DNA of 64,000 nt from Promethearchaeota archaeon (GCA_016840165.1 JAEOSU010000070.1:1-64000); one strand, 5' to 3'; shown: positions 5,453-16,071, counted from the first letter of the stretch. Translations and numbers: made by a program. Notes: generated from the sequence alone by a model not told the origin.

Positions 5453-6118
5453 ATGAAACAAGTTACTGATCACGTATATCATGTAGGAGATTCAGGATGT
5501 TCAGTGTTCTTAATTGATACTCATCCAGAAGATGGCTTAATTTTAATCGATTGTGGGATGAGTTTGGAAATGATTAAAAAAAGTATCACTAAAAGTGGAT
5601 TGAACCCCAGAGATATACAGCACTGTATTCTTACCCATTTTCATATCGATCATATCGGCGCTTGCCATGATTTAAAGATGTATAACCAAAATGTAAAATT
5701 TTATGCTCATGAATTGGACGCAAAAGCAATTGAAGAAAAGGGACACGACCAGAAGACTGCTGCTTCATGGTATAGCGTTGATTATATCCCAGTTAGTTTG
5801 GAAAAGAAAATAACACAAGAAAAAGAAATATTGCATTTTGGAAATTATGATTTTCAATGCATCCATACGCCAGGACATACTCCGGGATCAATATGTGTTT
5901 ACATAGAAATTGATAATAAAAATATTCTATTTGGGCAAGATATTCACGGTCCATTTTATCCAGCGTTCGGATCTAGTCTAGAGGATTACCAAAAATCAAT
6001 GAATAAACTGTTAGGTTTGGAAATTGATATCCTTTGTGAAGGCCATTTTGGTATTTTTCGACCCTCAGAAGAAGTTTATAAATATATTAAACGACATATG
6101 AATCTCAACAAACCATAA
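5453..6118 (+). CDS. metallo-beta-lactamase-fold hydrolase
   Basis: A 221-residue MBL-fold protein, close to the minimal length for the fold. The zinc-binding motif HxHxDH is complete (H62-F-H64-I-D66-H67 in LTHFHIDHIGA), followed by the third His in HTPGHTPGS, the bridging Asp in FGQDIHG and the last His in CEGHFG. This arrangement is that of the glyoxalase II-like group, not the beta-CASP nucleases. The substrate is unknown. The gene starts 17 bases after the PAP2 phosphatase, so a shared transcript and a function in the same pathway are plausible but unproven. Confidence 0.85.
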   Translation: MKQVTDHVYHVGDSGCSVFLIDTHPEDGLILIDCGMSLEMIKKSITKSGLNPRDIQHCILTHFHIDHIGACHDLKMYNQNVKFYAHELDAKAIEEKGHDQKTAASWYSVDYIPVSLEKKITQEKEILHFGNYDFQCIHTPGHTPGSICVYIEIDNKNILFGQDIHGPFYPAFGSSLEDYQKSMNKLLGLEIDILCEGHFGIFRPSEEVYKYIKRHMNLNKP

Positions 6119-6209: not shown

Positions 6210-7046
6210 ATGCTGTCTCTAATTTTTCAAGATTTTAACGAAGCATGGCGAAAATTCGAGTATGATTATATCTTTATTGATGGTATTTTCTTTTTATTGT
6301 GGTTAGGTCTTCTAATCAAAAAGAAAAAATGGAAGCCAATCAAATTTGGCGTTATTACAAGTATTATTGTATATTTCATTGATGCTGTGTTTTGGTGGAA
6401 CCTCCCAGCTAATGCTAATTATCCCCCTGGAACCACGATTAGAGAATATTGGATTGGTGGAGTAAAAGTTCCCAAAGCATTAGGTGAGTATTTTTGGCCT
6501 AAAGCGGGAGCTGATTTTATGATGTGTATTAGTTATTCAATGTTTATCTTTCCGTGGTTATGGATTGTATTCGAAAACTTTGTAAAGAAAAATGCTAAGG
6601 AAATTACCATTTTTACAGGAGTGTTTTTTAGTTCATGGTTTTTAACTCCATTTCTTTCATTTTGGCTTCCGATAAATAATACTATAGTTGAGACAGTAAG
6701 ACATATGGATACTCAAATGATCGCTTGGATTGTAAATGTTATTATAGGGTATACTCTTTTAAGTTTAATTTACGGAACCAACAAATTTGGGAAGAAAAAT
6801 CTAAAATATATCGCTTATGTTTTTATTATAGGATGTTTAGGCTCATTTTTTATGGAATTTCCACTATTTATTACAGGTATACGTCCAACTGGTATTGAAT
6901 TTCTGATTTTTGAAATAATTATTTTATTTAACCAAGGAGCGCCTTATTTGTTTATAGCGTATGATATTGTGCTTCCAAAAGTTTTTGCAATTCTAAAAGA
7001 AAAATTCTCAAAAAAGAAAGAATTACCTGTAATAATAAAAAATTAA
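6210..7046 (+). CDS. polytopic membrane protein, function unknown
   Basis: A 278-residue protein with about seven or eight hydrophobic spans and a lysine-rich C-terminal tail (KEKFSKKKELPVIIKN). A conserved-looking extramembrane loop between spans 2 and 3 contains WWNLPANANYPPGTTIREYW, rich in aromatic residues and Pro. There is no recognised transporter or enzyme motif. It lies 91 bases after the hydrolase on the same strand and converges with the SIR2-TPR gene, leaving 19 bases between stops. I do not recognise the family. The start is the first ATG, immediately before the first hydrophobic segment. Confidence 0.7.
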   Translation: MLSLIFQDFNEAWRKFEYDYIFIDGIFFLLWLGLLIKKKKWKPIKFGVITSIIVYFIDAVFWWNLPANANYPPGTTIREYWIGGVKVPKALGEYFWPKAGADFMMCISYSMFIFPWLWIVFENFVKKNAKEITIFTGVFFSSWFLTPFLSFWLPINNTIVETVRHMDTQMIAWIVNVIIGYTLLSLIYGTNKFGKKNLKYIAYVFIIGCLGSFFMEFPLFITGIRPTGIEFLIFEIIILFNQGAPYLFIAYDIVLPKVFAILKEKFSKKKELPVIIKN

Positions 7047-7065: not shown

Positions 7066-10000
7066 TTATTTTAAATTACTTTTAATTATTTTAATGTTGT
7101 TTTTTAAGACTTTATTAAGAGGATGTTTTTTCAAACCGCTGGAATCCAAAATTTCGAGTGCTTCTTCATGTCGGGTCATCGCTTCCGCATAGCTTTTTTG
7201 ATCTAAATAGATTAATCCCATTTTATAGTTAGTATCTGCGATACCCATTTTATCATCCAACTTCTTAAACAAGGAAAGCGCATCATTACACGTTTTCCAC
7301 GCATCAGTGTAGTTCTTCTCGTTTAAATGAACTAAAGTAAGATTATTGAGATATACTGCTTTCTTTTTGTTATCTTTTAGCTTTTCTGCAATTTTTGCTG
7401 CCTCTTTAAACCTTTTTAAGGCAATATCGTAATTACCCTCATCTAAATAGATCAATCCGATATTATTGAGACTTTCAGCTTTTCTATTAGAATTTTCTAA
7501 TTCCTCATCGACTTTTAAGGCTTTCTCGAATGTTTTTAATGCTTGAAGATATTCTCCTTGATCACGATAAATCAACGCAGTATTAAAATAATTAATTGCT
7601 TTCTCTTCAGAAGGACCTAATACCTTAAAGATCTTTACTGCTTTATCATACCATTTAAGGGATGTATCATAATTGCCTTGATCTTGATACACTAACGCAA
7701 TGTTATTTAAAGCCTCAGTCTTTCCAATGAGATCACCCCGTTTTTCAAACAAATCTAATGCTAAATTGTATCGTTTTAATGCATCTTTATAAATACCAAG
7801 TTTATAATAAACTCGTCCAATTTTATTATAGGAAGCTGCTTTTAGATCTAAATCGTCCAGTTGTTTAGCAACCTTTAAAGCTTCATTGTACCATTTCAAG
7901 GCTTCAGAAAAGTCGCGCGAATCGTCATAGATCGAACCAATACTGTCAAAACAGGCATAAATTCCTTCATAGTTCTCGATTTCAACAAATATTTTATACG
8001 CATTTTCATACCATCTTAACGATTCTGGAAATAGCTTTTGTTCTTGATATAATTCTCCGATATCTCTTATGATTTTTGCTTGATTAGTTAGGTTTCCTAA
8101 TTGTTCCTCAATTTCTAAAGCTTCTCGATATCTTTTAAGAACTTCGTCATATTTTTTATGAATAAGAAAGATGGCAGCGATATTTCTAAGCCGCACAGCC
8201 ATTCCCTTGAGATTTGCCAATTGTTCATCTATTTTTAATGCTTCTTCATATGATTTTAAGGATTCGGTATAGATCTCTTCATCATAATGAATATCCCCAA
8301 TACTATTGTAGATATCTGCTTTAGTTTCAAGATTGCCTAATTTCTCTGCAATATAAATTGCCTCATTGAATCTTCTTATAGCTTCGGAATAATGCTTTTG
8401 GGATTGATAAATTTTTCCAATAATATTTAAAATTTCAACTTGATCTTCATAATTCCCTAATTGATCAGCAATAATAAGCGATTCTTCGTAATGTTTTAAT
8501 GCTTCTAACAAATCCCATTGATCGCGATAGATACTTCCAATAATGTTTAAACAATGAGATTTTTTCGTAAGGTTTCCAATTTGTTCTGCTAGCTCAACTG
8601 CTTGCTCGAATTTCTTAAGTGCTTCATTGGATTCTCCTTGATAGTTATAATTTAAGCCAATGTTGTGGAGACTATCAATTTCTCCTTCCATATTTCCTTC
8701 TTCTATGAATATTTCAAGAGCTTCCTCAAATTTATCGAAAGCTTTATCATATGCTCCTTGATCTTGATATATAGATCCAATTTTATTCAATAAATCGGCT
8801 TTTTTTTCCACTAAATTTAAATTGGTAATTATTGAAAGTGCATCTTTATATCTGTTCAAGGCTTCAACAAAATTAGCTTGTTCCTGATAATAATTTCCAA
8901 TATTTTTTAGACTTTCTGCACTTCCTTCAAGACTTTGTATGTCTTCATATATCTCAAGTGCTTCTTGATAATTAATTAATGCATCGTTGAAATCACGTTG
9001 CTCTAAATAAATCTCACCAATTATATTTAATACTTCTGCCCTACCTTTTATGTCTTGGAGTTGATCGTACGTTTTTAAAGAGCTTTCAAGTGTATTCAAT
9101 GCTTTTTCATAATTTCTCTGTTTTTTATATATCAGCCCTATATGTACTTGGACATTTACCATTCCGCTTAACTTTCCAAGATCCTGATATAATTGATAGG
9201 ATTCTTCAAACCATCGCAAAGCTTCATTATACTTGTCTTGTATGTAATAAATATTTCCAATCTGAAGCGTGAAATCTGCTTTCTGTTCATTTAGTTTCTT
9301 CTCTTCAGCAGTAGAATACCCCTCTTCGAACAATTCTAATGCTTTTGGATAATTCCATTGATCTAAATAGATTACTCCAATATTTCTGATTGCTTTTAGT
9401 TTACCTTTTATATTCTGATAACGCTCATAAATTTCTAAAGCATTATCACATAACTCAATACCCTTAACGGAATCACCATTTTGATGATAGACCATCCCTA
9501 AAACATTATAAATAGCTGCTTTTTCGCCTATATTTTCCAAAGTATCATTGATTTCCAGCGATTCTTCAAGATATTCTATAGCTTTATCATAATTTTTCTT
9601 TGATAAGTAGATTTTCCCTATTGCTTTAAGGTTATTAGCTTTTTCTTGAAGGTCATCAGCTTTTTGATTGAATTTAATAGCGCTTTCGTATTGTTTGATG
9701 GCATCTTGATACCTTTCTTGCATGCGATAAATTTTTGCATAATTTTTTACAATTTTAGATTTTGCACCCAGATCTCTAGCTTTTTCAATCTCTTTAGAAG
9801 CTAAATCGAAGTATTTGATGGCTTCAGTAAAGTTGTTTTGTTTTTGATTGATTAATCCAATATATTTAAAAATTGTACTTCTTTGGGTATAATCTTTAAT
9901 TTTAATTAATATCTGTCCCGCCTTTTGGAACCAATCCAATGCTTTTTCATAATCTTCTTTCTCATAATTGATTTTTCCCATCTCTATTAATGTTTTCGAT

Positions 10001-11124
10001 TGCCATATTTTTTCATCTGATTCATCCGCTAGGCGATAAATTCTATCTAGACATCTCAAAGCTTCAGTATAATTACTGGTTTCATAATAGATTTTGTATG
10101 ACACATATAATTTTTGTAATTCGTTTGGTTGCTCTAAAATTGTTGGAATCCATTTTTTTAAATCTAATTGAAATTCCTCAGAGTCTAAAGTTTCCTTTGA
10201 GGAAAGAAAATTTGCAACAAAATTAGGTGTATTTATGTCGATTCTATAAATACCTTTTGATGGATTTATATATTTGAGATCGAAAAGAATCTTATCTAAG
10301 CCTTTTAACTCTTCTAAATCTTTTACATTTTGAATAGAATATTCATATATTTCTAATTTCTTCCGAATGTCATCAACGTGATTTATCCAAATAATATTTT
10401 CTAACTCATTTAATACTTTTAAACTCGATAAAATATCAGAATCGTTATTACCTGAATATCCCATCACGATTAATGTACGTCCTTTTGTAAGATTCTCAAG
10501 CACCGGCGATTTATATGGTTCTAATTGAATAATGTTATTTCGGTCATGATTGAGACTGACAAGACTAATGGTATTTATAAAAGATTTCCTAGTATCTTCT
10601 CCTGTTATTACGTTTTTTGGTGAACTATGAATTTTATAAACTGGTACTTTTCCACTCTTCATTAACTTCTCAGGATCATCATATTTGTTAAAATCCTTTT
10701 CTGTGATAACAGGTATAAGTTTCTTTTTAGGGATGGATAATTTCAGTAATGCTTGTTCAATGAGATAATCAAAGTTGCTCGTTATAACGTAATTACCTTT
10801 TTTCATCATTTCTGAAAGGAAAAAATGAATTTCATTAGGTTTATCGGACTCAAGATAATAATCAACTATATGTAAATCCTTGTCTAGCACTTCATGGAGA
10901 ATTCCAAGAAAGGTCTCAAATTTTAGAGATTCGATTTTTAATATAGAATTTACCTCTGAGGGAGTACACACATACTTTATTAATTCATTCATCATATCCT
11001 GAGCAGTAGGTAAACGTGAAGGAGCCTTCTTAGAAATTCCTGCACCAACGAGAAAAGTGAGGTCCTCTGCTTCATTCATTAAACCAGTAATATCTAAATC
11101 AGATACCTTTTTAATTGAACTCAA
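7066..11124 (-). CDS. giant SIR2-domain protein with about 25 TPR repeats
   Basis: A 1352-residue soluble protein. Residues about 15-300 form a SIR2_2-type NAD-binding domain: FLVGAGISKKAPSRLPT is the GAG(I)S loop, YVITSNFDYLIEQALL the N-D loop, PVYKIHSS carries the candidate catalytic His (HS where HG is usual), and LIVMGYSGNNDSD is the later Rossmann strand. Residues about 335-1340 are about 25 consecutive tetratricopeptide units of 40 residues, typified by LNIIGEIYLEQRDFNDALINYQEALEIYEDI without long interruptions. SIR2 domains fused to repeat sensors occur in bacterial anti-phage proteins that deplete NAD; that function here is inference. No defence genes flank it, and it stands alone between convergent and same-strand housekeeping-like genes. 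TPRs imply a protein partner. Confidence 0.88.
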   Translation of the reverse strand: MSSIKKVSDLDITGLMNEAEDLTFLVGAGISKKAPSRLPTAQDMMNELIKYVCTPSEVNSILKIESLKFETFLGILHEVLDKDLHIVDYYLESDKPNEIHFFLSEMMKKGNYVITSNFDYLIEQALLKLSIPKKKLIPVITEKDFNKYDDPEKLMKSGKVPVYKIHSSPKNVITGEDTRKSFINTISLVSLNHDRNNIIQLEPYKSPVLENLTKGRTLIVMGYSGNNDSDILSSLKVLNELENIIWINHVDDIRKKLEIYEYSIQNVKDLEELKGLDKILFDLKYINPSKGIYRIDINTPNFVANFLSSKETLDSEEFQLDLKKWIPTILEQPNELQKLYVSYKIYYETSNYTEALRCLDRIYRLADESDEKIWQSKTLIEMGKINYEKEDYEKALDWFQKAGQILIKIKDYTQRSTIFKYIGLINQKQNNFTEAIKYFDLASKEIEKARDLGAKSKIVKNYAKIYRMQERYQDAIKQYESAIKFNQKADDLQEKANNLKAIGKIYLSKKNYDKAIEYLEESLEINDTLENIGEKAAIYNVLGMVYHQNGDSVKGIELCDNALEIYERYQNIKGKLKAIRNIGVIYLDQWNYPKALELFEEGYSTAEEKKLNEQKADFTLQIGNIYYIQDKYNEALRWFEESYQLYQDLGKLSGMVNVQVHIGLIYKKQRNYEKALNTLESSLKTYDQLQDIKGRAEVLNIIGEIYLEQRDFNDALINYQEALEIYEDIQSLEGSAESLKNIGNYYQEQANFVEALNRYKDALSIITNLNLVEKKADLLNKIGSIYQDQGAYDKAFDKFEEALEIFIEEGNMEGEIDSLHNIGLNYNYQGESNEALKKFEQAVELAEQIGNLTKKSHCLNIIGSIYRDQWDLLEALKHYEESLIIADQLGNYEDQVEILNIIGKIYQSQKHYSEAIRRFNEAIYIAEKLGNLETKADIYNSIGDIHYDEEIYTESLKSYEEALKIDEQLANLKGMAVRLRNIAAIFLIHKKYDEVLKRYREALEIEEQLGNLTNQAKIIRDIGELYQEQKLFPESLRWYENAYKIFVEIENYEGIYACFDSIGSIYDDSRDFSEALKWYNEALKVAKQLDDLDLKAASYNKIGRVYYKLGIYKDALKRYNLALDLFEKRGDLIGKTEALNNIALVYQDQGNYDTSLKWYDKAVKIFKVLGPSEEKAINYFNTALIYRDQGEYLQALKTFEKALKVDEELENSNRKAESLNNIGLIYLDEGNYDIALKRFKEAAKIAEKLKDNKKKAVYLNNLTLVHLNEKNYTDAWKTCNDALSLFKKLDDKMGIADTNYKMGLIYLDQKSYAEAMTRHEEALEILDSSGLKKHPLNKVLKNNIKIIKSNLK

Positions 11125-11251
11125 TCAAATTCACACCCTTAAAAATTATGTATTTCGTATAAGAATAGGATTACTAGCTAATCTTAAATAATTTTGGATT
11201 ATGATTACAAAAATGTTTACTACTATCAATATCAGAGATACACTATTATTA

Positions 11252-12064
11252 TTAATAACCAAAAAAAGACTGAATTTCTTCTTGAATTTTACTCCTAATA
11301 TCCTCTTCTGTCCAATCATGGTCCATCTGCTCAATTAAAACGACCTTAACATTCGCTAATTGATCAAATATATTTGCTTTTAAATCTGAAATATCAATAA
11401 ATCTATTTTCACTTCCTATAATGATTTTCATTTTGTTATAAATCATCTCATTTAAAAGTTTTTCAACTTGATATTCATTAGAATTTAACTCTGATTTAGT
11501 TTTTGATAAAAATTTTTCAATATTTTCTATTCCATGAACATTCCTTGGAAGATATCTATTTATATATTGAAGAGTTTTGAGAAAATTACCATCATTGACC
11601 CGCTTTTTTAAATCTAAAATAGGAGAGAGAAGTAAAATTTTATTGATGAAATCAATCTTAGAACATAATAAGAGTGCAATATAACTTCCAAATCCGTGAG
11701 CTAAAATATTTACCTCTTGGCGTTTAAAGATTTCTTTTTTTCCCATAAGCTGAATAAATTCAGCGATTTTTAAGGAATCCTTTATCTGTGATTGAAGAGA
11801 AACTTTACCTTGACTGTTATTATACCCTCTAAAATTAAATAGTAATAAGCTAAATCCAGTTTTTAATAGGAATTCCAAGTTAGCAGCAATCTGGTGCAAA
11901 TTAAAAAGATTTGGAAAGTCATGGAAATAAGTAATTAATCGATAAGGTTTTTTATAGAATTCTCTGGGAAAATATAGTAAACCTCGTTGAAGTTTCCCTT
12001 CGATATTTAATTCAACCGCTGAAACCTCATAAGATCCATCATATTGTTTCTCTTTAAAATCCAT
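11252..12064 (-). CDS. alpha/beta-hydrolase-fold protein without the nucleophile serine
   Basis: A 270-residue protein of the alpha/beta-hydrolase fold, similar in layout to short acyl- or peptidase-type hydrolases: the oxyanion strand RLITYFHDF (about 42-50), LLLFNFRGYNNSQG (about 73-87), the nucleophile elbow at 120-128, and a terminal DHDW that would supply the His. The elbow reads LAHGFGSYIAL, so the position of the Ser in GxSxG is Gly124; the nearest Ser is S127. This suggests a non-catalytic or non-canonical member. It lies upstream of the SIR2-TPR gene on the same strand with about 130 bases between them and is divergent from the PHP phosphatase. Confidence 0.75.
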   Translation of the reverse strand: MDFKEKQYDGSYEVSAVELNIEGKLQRGLLYFPREFYKKPYRLITYFHDFPNLFNLHQIAANLEFLLKTGFSLLLFNFRGYNNSQGKVSLQSQIKDSLKIAEFIQLMGKKEIFKRQEVNILAHGFGSYIALLLCSKIDFINKILLLSPILDLKKRVNDGNFLKTLQYINRYLPRNVHGIENIEKFLSKTKSELNSNEYQVEKLLNEMIYNKMKIIIGSENRFIDISDLKANIFDQLANVKVVLIEQMDHDWTEEDIRSKIQEEIQSFFGY

Positions 12065-12153: not shown

Positions 12154-13002
12154 ATGATATTTCAAGATTGGCATACACACAATTCCTTATGTTCCCACGC
12201 TATCGGTTCAATAGAAGATTATGTAAAAAAAAGCATTGAGAAAAATTTAAATCTTATTGGAGTGAGCGATCACTTTCCCTATGAGTGTTTAAAGGGAATT
12301 GAAGAGATCCCATATGAAGAATATGCGATGAAACTTGAAAATTTAGAACCTTACGTCTCAACTGTAGAGTATTTAAGAGAGAAGTATCAAGATATAATAG
12401 AAATTAAGCTTGCGTTTGAATTAGATTATATCGAACAACAAGTTAATGCCCATAAACCCTATTTAAAAAAATATTTTAAGCAAATAGACTACATTCTGGG
12501 CTCAGTTCACATTTTATTAGGAAAAGGAAAAATGTTCGCGTTTGACGACAATCGATTTCTAAATGATTATAGGCTCTATGATAGTATGAATGAGATTTAT
12601 ATAGATTACTATAATACCATACAAAATATGATAATAAGTACTGAATTTTCTTTTGATATTATTAGCCATTTTGATTTACCTAAGAAATATAATAAGCGAC
12701 CAGAGGATGAAGGATTAATTGCTGAACACGTAGATCGGACTTTAGATCTCATTAAAACAAAAGATCTAACTGTAGAAATTAATACTAGTGGATGGCGAAA
12801 AGAAGTCAAGGAACAATATCCTAGTAAAGATATAATAAAGAAGATGTATGAATTAGATATTCCGATTGTATTAGGCTCTGATGCTCATCACCCTAATGAA
12901 GTAGGATTTAACTTTAATGAAGCGATAAAGTTGGTTAAAAAGATTGGATACACTCAACTGGCTTATTTTGAAAAGAGAAAAAGAAAGTTTATTGATCTTT
13001 AA
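12154..13002 (+). CDS. PHP-domain phosphatase, histidinol-phosphatase-like
   Basis: A 282-residue PHP-family metallophosphoesterase of the HisJ/HisK type. Metal ligands are visible in DWHTHNSLCSH (H7, H9), GVSDHF (D39-H40), the Glu of LAFELDYI, LGSVHI, IISHFD and LGSDAHHPNEVG near the C-terminus. The length and motif order match histidinol-phosphate phosphatases, which carry out the penultimate-stage dephosphorylation in histidine synthesis. No other his gene is nearby, so a different small phosphate ester as substrate remains possible. The next gene begins 23 bases downstream, suggesting a two-gene transcript. Confidence 0.85.
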   Translation: MIFQDWHTHNSLCSHAIGSIEDYVKKSIEKNLNLIGVSDHFPYECLKGIEEIPYEEYAMKLENLEPYVSTVEYLREKYQDIIEIKLAFELDYIEQQVNAHKPYLKKYFKQIDYILGSVHILLGKGKMFAFDDNRFLNDYRLYDSMNEIYIDYYNTIQNMIISTEFSFDIISHFDLPKKYNKRPEDEGLIAEHVDRTLDLIKTKDLTVEINTSGWRKEVKEQYPSKDIIKKMYELDIPIVLGSDAHHPNEVGFNFNEAIKLVKKIGYTQLAYFEKRKRKFIDL

Positions 13003-15102: not shown

Positions 15103-16071
15103 TTACTCCATTTTCCTGGATCGTAACCATCCTTCCATTATAATACTTTTAAAGAATTTAACATGTTTTGAATCTTTGGTATGTATTACTAAATGATTCT
15201 CATCATGATTCCCAATTACCGCAAAAAGGAGTTCTTCCCCATCTCTATCGAGGATATATCGATCTTCTGCTTCATACATTCTGATAGAGATATTATCTAG
15301 ACTCTGAAATTCTTCTAATAGTTCAGCATCCTCTTCAAGACCAGGGTCAATATAACAAGACACTTTCATATTTACTGAAGAGCGTACTTCATATAATGTT
15401 AATGTTTGGAGATCTTTTATATTTGGGACCGCAATAGTGACGTTATGAAGAGCATTCATTAATATTTCTCTCATCTTGGTAAGGATTTTATCTTTTGGGA
15501 TATCAATATTCGTCCAATCGATAATTTTAGAACCTGATGCGGCGGCTAATTGATTTCTTAGTTTTTCATTTTCTTTTTCTAATAATTCTAGATCCTCATC
15601 AGCCTTGGTTAGTTCCCCTTTTAATAGTTCAAGCTTCTCTTGAAGATTATCTATTTCTTTGTCTTTTTGCTCTACCACTGTTTTTTCTACCCTTGTATCC
15701 AATAAAAGCTTAATTTCCTTTTCTTTTAATTCTACTGATTTCTCTAATGTTTGTATTTTCTCATCTTTAATTTTCAATGAACCATCTAAAGTTTCAACTT
15801 GTTCACTTTTCAAACTAATAGAATCTTTAAGTGTTTTAATCTGATCCTCCTTTAGATTCATTGAACTTTGCAGATTTTTGATCAAATCATCTTTAGTTTT
15901 TATTTGCTCATCTTTTACCCTTATTTGATCTCTGAGGGTCATAAGCTTTTTTATCTCATCTTCTTTAACCCTAAGTTTATCTTTTAAATTCTCAATTTCT
16001 TTCTGGAGATCTTCAATCTCTTTTTCTTTTGATTTTGAATCATCTTGGGGATGGTTTGCTTGATCTTTCAT
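15103..16071 (-). CDS. long coiled-coil protein with a small C-terminal alpha/beta domain
   Basis: A 322-residue protein. Residues about 10-175 form a nearly uninterrupted coiled coil with short internal repeats (KDEQIKTKDDLIKNLQSS, KEDQIKTLKDSISLKSEQ). Residues about 185-322 form a compact domain (VTIAVPNIKDLQTLTLYEV ... MKVSCYID ... HLVIHTKDSKHVKFFK) whose pattern resembles the C-terminal regulatory or PLD-like domain of TrmB-type proteins. No DNA-binding helix is seen. It is divergent from the double-roadblock gene across 228 bases. A scaffold or sensor role is inference. Confidence 0.7.
   Translation of the reverse strand: MKDQANHPQDDSKSKEKEIEDLQKEIENLKDKLRVKEDEIKKLMTLRDQIRVKDEQIKTKDDLIKNLQSSMNLKEDQIKTLKDSISLKSEQVETLDGSLKIKDEKIQTLEKSVELKEKEIKLLLDTRVEKTVVEQKDKEIDNLQEKLELLKGELTKADEDLELLEKENEKLRNQLAAASGSKIIDWTNIDIPKDKILTKMREILMNALHNVTIAVPNIKDLQTLTLYEVRSSVNMKVSCYIDPGLEEDAELLEEFQSLDNISIRMYEAEDRYILDRDGEELLFAVIGNHDENHLVIHTKDSKHVKFFKSIIMEGWLRSRKME

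Follow-up and report, generated by a model that had tools for sequence, protein, structure and literature searches.

A conserved SIR2-TPR protein of Lokiarchaeales resembles a resident cellular sensor more than a mobile antiviral gene product

Analysis of a 64,000-nucleotide stretch of DNA from a Promethearchaeota archaeon (hereafter, the window) revealed a protein of 1352 aa, encoded on the minus strand at 7066..11124, that joins an N-terminal SIR2_2 domain with a conserved active site to an array of 25 TPRs with a conserved groove, and that is vertically inherited within its genus. What is known of SIR2 NADases comes mainly from anti-phage genes with a patchy distribution; the gene described here has the appearance of lasting sensing equipment of the cell and not of a mobile antiviral element. 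Given its constant locus, unvarying number of repeats and sequence constraint, we favour a permanent, ligand-gated NAD+ hydrolase, and on balance we think it probable that the protein is a vertically inherited SIR2_2-type enzyme of this kind whose groove in TPR21-25 reads an unchanging ligand. If true, the archaeal relatives of eukaryotes would have domesticated a SIR2 NADase and made it a standing sensor of the cell, and a locus-fixed gene with an invariant 25-repeat rod would offer a direct test for host-fixed SIR2 sensors outside animals.

The ORF runs for 1352 codons from a TTG start at 11124, with a TGA codon directly 5' of it, to a stop at 7066-7068; the sequence-only reading had given no strand. 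A ribosome-binding-like GGGTG (11134..11138, minus strand) lies nine bases before the TTG and is kept in the orthologue of the nearest relative (L040, 85% identical), where the TTG and its upstream context recur as well. In the orthologues, translation begins at the equivalent residue or slightly upstream, by a few residues. In one genome (G020), the orthologue (L033:7906-11848) is broken near its C-terminus into a 1235-aa product and a further piece of 87 aa that matches the same protein; this apparent frameshift is attributable to assembly error or recent decay.

Residues 1-313 (10186..11124, minus strand) were assigned to the NADase-type sirtuin domain SIR2_2 by Pfam (PF13289, E 2e-7, 31.5-32.6 bits versus a cut-off of 24.5), AlphaFold2 and structural matches. 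The GAGIS loop, SNFD motif and candidate catalytic histidine picked out in the sequence-only reading were all recovered: the GAGIS nucleotide-binding loop at residues 27-31 (11032..11046, minus strand), SNFD at residues 116-119 (10768..10779, minus strand), comprising D119 and, at the catalytic Asn position, N117, and IHSS at residues 165-168 (10621..10632, minus strand), with H166 at the catalytic His position. The latter two motifs align with TTNFD and KIHG of SPARSA. G27, G29 and S31 are invariant in a 39-sequence alignment and intact in all rows that cover the loop among 62 homologues, while N117 and D119 are present in 62/62 and H166 in 61/62 of these homologues; replacement of the catalytic residues in most orthologues, which that reading had named as the outcome that would overturn it, was not what we observed. 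The presence of IHSS instead of IHG in this protein and seven other orthologues could be taken as a sign of a catalytically dead SIR2 domain, which would leave the protein as a TPR scaffold only. However, position 167 toggles between S (8 of 21 orthologues) and G (the other 13, as well as all 41 non-orthologue members) in otherwise intact orthologues, so we rejected a degenerate active site and read IHSS, from the alignment, as a minor variant. Together with the retained catalytic residues and a dN/dS of 0.077 for the SIR2 domain, this makes a dead enzyme very improbable.

The SIR2 domain contains only one cysteine, C53, and thus no zinc module; canonical deacetylases need such a module, whereas SIR2_2 proteins do without one (PMC12700824). 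In the same line, Pfam returned SIR2_2 only, with no match in the protein to the canonical sirtuin deacylase family PF02146, and the Cys4 zinc module was also absent. By the features tested (PF13289, loop, Asn/His pair, lack of zinc cysteines), the predicted protein is a SIR2_2 enzyme. A protein deacylase or ADP-ribosyltransferase whose TPR array targets substrates appears improbable to us on these grounds, even though SIR2-fold enzymes perform both reactions and canonical sirtuins encoded in the same genome mean that such chemistry exists in the cell. Four canonical PF02146 sirtuins are found there (C54:202993-203526, C30:168889-169422, C66:10520-11053 and C4:52627-53142 in G000).

Structure prediction, which the earlier reading had proposed for comparison with known SIR2 NADases, bore out the assignment. 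AlphaFold2 modelled the SIR2 domain and first three TPRs with a mean pLDDT of 90.3, and the best solved structural matches of the SIR2 model were SIR2 domains of anti-phage NADases, namely SPARSA SIR2-APAZ (Z 19.8), ThsA (17.7), DSR2 (16.8) and KomC (16.7). Profile comparison at the sequence level gave SPARSA at E 8e-6, together with a weak match to human FAM118B (E 0.009). The N133A and H171A mutations abolish the NADase activity of DSR2 (PMC11290490), affecting equivalent-looking positions to N117 and H166, and FAM118 requires N163 and H206 for NAD processing (PMC12700824). Since the motifs are intact, the zinc module is lacking and the Asn/His pair is essential in both DSR2 and FAM118, NADase activity is likely, as judged from predicted fold and residues; the intact active site does not prove it and is compatible with another NAD-dependent reaction as well.

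Following a linker of ~20 residues, the TPR array occupies residues 335-1334 (7123..10122, minus strand). The sequence-only reading had counted about 25 uninterrupted repeats, and the number proved to be exactly 25: an HMM built from the protein's own repeats found 25 units at 40-residue spacing, and AlphaFold2 modelling of residues 313-1352 yielded one short helix at the N-terminus, then 25 pairs of alternating helices (50 in all) and a C-terminal capping helix (residues 1335-1352; 7069..7122, minus strand) without interruption. Pfam recorded TPR_12 (E 3e-143) in 15 separate stretches. The model reached a mean pLDDT of 90.6 with an overall pTM of only 0.55, so its superhelix pitch is not trustworthy. 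All complete orthologues of the genus carry exactly 25 TPRs, which excludes chance for the repeat count, and alignments of their arrays are essentially indel-free, except for one 33-residue insertion. As the array is at least as conserved as the enzyme domain, we rejected a fast-evolving sensor; this sits poorly with the phage sensing hinted at in the sequence-only reading, for which a rapidly changing viral sensor would be the expected form.

Conservation within the array peaks on one surface. Concave and convex positions were assigned by standard TPR numbering, and the concave, ligand-facing positions of TPR21-25 (7123..7722, minus strand) turned out to be unusually conserved, making this region a candidate sensor site. 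Across eight diverse orthologues, mean pairwise identity in TPR21-25 was 0.77 at concave versus 0.54 at convex positions (p 5e-4) and compared with 0.51 on the concave face of TPR1-20 (p 5e-6); these p-values are optimistic, because all 21 overlapping windows of five repeats had been inspected before TPR21-25 was chosen and because the orthologues share ancestry. Groove positions without any variation include N1140, N1181, R1187, D1188, N1260 and N1261. The conservation of this groove strongly hints that the rod has a single conserved ligand near its C-terminus.

We searched the SIR2 domain in 58 related genomes and 227 genomes of the phylum; the genomes compared are metagenome-assembled. Within the genus, 24/24 genomes hold one orthologue each, and these form one clade (24 rows; 100/99 ultrafast bootstrap/SH-aLRT support) in a tree made without bacterial or FAM118 sequences. 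Given the stated assembly completeness, even a universal gene would have only a ~7% chance of being visible in all 24 genomes, which makes fixation the natural interpretation. The 19 other loci examined in the genus all (19/19) share at least one flank with the window, and most share both. The shared flanks comprise a PHP-domain gene (12154..13002, plus strand) and the genes at 15103, 16299, 17034 and 18322 on one side, and a metallo-beta-lactamase-fold gene (5453..6118, plus strand), a PAP2 gene and the gene at 6210 on the other. The last encodes a 278-aa protein without a Pfam match (6210..7046, plus strand), is convergent with the SIR2-TPR gene and accompanies many, not all, orthologues. 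Directly upstream, on the same strand and across a 127-bp gap, an alpha/beta-hydrolase gene (11252..12064, minus strand) is found beside some orthologues only and is possibly an optional operon partner. Comparison with the closest genome, a single pair with dS ~1 covering only the first 460 residues, gave a dN/dS of 0.079 overall and 0.083 for the first TPRs, within the range of neighbouring genes (0.019-0.183). The SIR2-TPR gene is thus a fixed, syntenic, slowly evolving and vertically inherited core gene of the genus.

That the gene is fixed across the genus, keeps its place among ordinary metabolic genes and is strongly constrained would also suit a housekeeping NAD-dependent regulator with no connection to viruses, acting in stress, in growth arrest or in NAD homeostasis, whose TPR rod would serve as a docking scaffold for host complexes. 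Long TPR arrays like those of LGN and kinesin light chain typically scaffold host proteins. Yet the characterised SIR2_2 relatives that we found are nearly all immune NADases, and the gene is missing from most genomes of the sister genus, so we consider this explanation doubtful. In that sister genus (g8), the equivalent slot was readable in 12 genomes, of which 2 (G030 and G148) carry a SIR2-TPR version of 1196 aa with 21 TPRs, sister to the genus clade (100/93), and 10 do not. Either the gene arose in the common ancestor, with frequent loss in g8, or it entered g8 by transfer; its absence from most sister-genus genomes at the slot implies that it is not essential to the family. In sister genera, the slot is occupied by an LRR-TPR protein, by a methyltransferase or by M20 peptidases, or has no notable content, and we rejected a defence-gene insertion hotspot. 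The LRR-plus-TPR protein measures 453-581 aa and occupies the sister-genus slot in at least three genomes (L171:9698-11059, L168:10173-11918 and L167:10086-11585, all on the plus strand), and ORFs of equal length lie at this position in two further loci (L175 and L181).

Apart from this orthologue, the wider SIR2-TPR family is found in multiple copies and patchily across Lokiarchaeales, and its paralogues extend to a few other Asgard groups, with 0 to 13 matches per genome overall. These paralogues, for example L041, L042 and L043 in the same genome, share the SIR2_2 subfamily and domain order, but differ in length (mostly 600-950 aa), in TPR number (variable, mostly fewer, with about 1-15 detected), in their patchy distribution and in locus. 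Such patchiness fits defence and favours an antiviral abortive-infection sensor, in which the TPRs would bind a viral protein, as DSR2 binds the phage tail tube, and the SIR2 domain would deplete NAD+. So does the predominance of anti-phage NADases among the closest solved SIR2 folds, as well as the fact that the domain's best defence matches in PADLOC were the SIR2 and SIR2-Argonaute models. The genus member, however, is a fixed, syntenic core gene with a nearly indel-free TPR array and low dN/dS, which is at odds with the defence-island and phage-sensing hint of the sequence-only reading. That reading had further stated that no defence gene flanks the locus, and this holds for the ORFs scanned: PADLOC (models from 2023) found no defence gene among the nine nearest neighbours and ten other window genes, nor a clear one among ten neighbours of L041, L042 and L043, the only neighbour matches being weak ones at the level of domains, among them generic ATPase, methyltransferase and coiled-coil models. 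A defence island was rejected accordingly. Phage and plasmid collections gave no match to the protein, and viral contigs gave three weak SIR2 matches only, so a mobile origin was likewise rejected. The best 80 matches in a collection of bacterial and archaeal genomes, scanned by one motif, were all Asgard. Antiviral use is therefore possible, although not specifically supported, and we regard an abortive-infection sensor as an open but not the expected outcome.

The anatomy is that of an effector enzyme mounted on a long sensor, working like DSR2, yet the protein falls outside the DSR, Thoeris, SPARSA and Avs systems on their defining parts. Like DSR2, it places an N-terminal SIR2_2 domain with catalytic Asn/His before a long, all-helical sensor in one chain, with a matching fold; DSR2, in contrast, has about 1000 aa, forms a phage-triggered tetramer and is not described as a TPR protein in PMC11290490, whereas the present protein is a fixed core gene product with 25 regular TPRs. 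At full length, PADLOC returned generic TPR models and a weak SIR2-Argonaute match (E 9e-4) rather than DSR1 or DSR2. SPARSA, which combines SIR2-APAZ with a short Argonaute, provides the best structural match, but the protein has no APAZ and no neighbouring Argonaute. ThsA of Thoeris shares the SIR2_2 NADase fold; here, the C-terminus is TPR-only without SLOG, and the neighbours are hydrolase, PHP, MBL and other genes, with no adjacent TIR gene (ThsB). Pfam and AlphaFold2 found no NTPase family between SIR2 and TPRs, as Avs/STAND proteins would have. Membership among TPR proteins is clear from the 25 tandem helix-turn-helix units with TPR consensus. Vertebrate FAM118A/B likewise belong to SIR2_2, process NAD, are fixed in the host and lack a zinc module (PMC12700824); they differ in that their activity depends on filaments. 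SIR2_2 plus sensor is a known design, and a published sirtuin tree (PMC12700824) already labels SIR2_2 proteins that carry TPRs, so the combination of the two domains is not in itself new. This protein stands apart from ordinary SIR2 defence genes by its constant locus, its unvarying number of repeats and the constraint on its sequence. To our knowledge, FAM118A/B have no TPR array. We found no paper describing the multi-copy Lokiarchaeales family in open PMC text, and the portion of a 2024 survey of Asgard defence systems available to us does not mention SIR2.

For the ligand-gated NAD+ hydrolase that we favour, we propose that the SIR2 domain would be held inactive or unassembled until the 25-TPR superhelix binds its ligand, most likely in the concave groove of TPR21-25. 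By analogy with DSR2 and FAM118, binding may change the oligomeric arrangement of the SIR2 domains and thereby switch on NAD+ cleavage at Asn117/His166, as in DSR2, ThsA and FAM118. Because the gene is fixed, syntenic, under strong purifying selection and invariant in repeat number, the ligand would be an unchanging one and is probably host-encoded or invariant, for instance a host protein or complex that reports infection or stress when it is disturbed, or else a foreign component that does not vary. More tentatively, this core-genome Lokiarchaeales NADase might guard a host component through its fixed groove, as a built-in Asgard cell-fate or immune checkpoint; equally speculative is the analogy by which its logic would be comparable to host-fixed vertebrate FAM118 and not to mobile bacterial defence islands. 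The variable paralogues could then act as adaptable, lineage-specific detectors.

The three own-genome paralogues L041, L042 and L043 measure 730, 806 and 657 aa and are surrounded by ordinary metabolic genes; members of the 806-aa group are also present in several more genomes of the genus. Giant SIR2-TPR relatives of about 1600-1830 aa occur in other Lokiarchaeia (L047, L056, L071 and L191), with the SIR2 domain of L071 placed mid-protein, from residue ~868. A 3154-aa protein (L055:1084-10548, plus strand, in G048) contains about 30 TPRs and two SIR2 regions, at residues ~16-330 and ~2516-2780.
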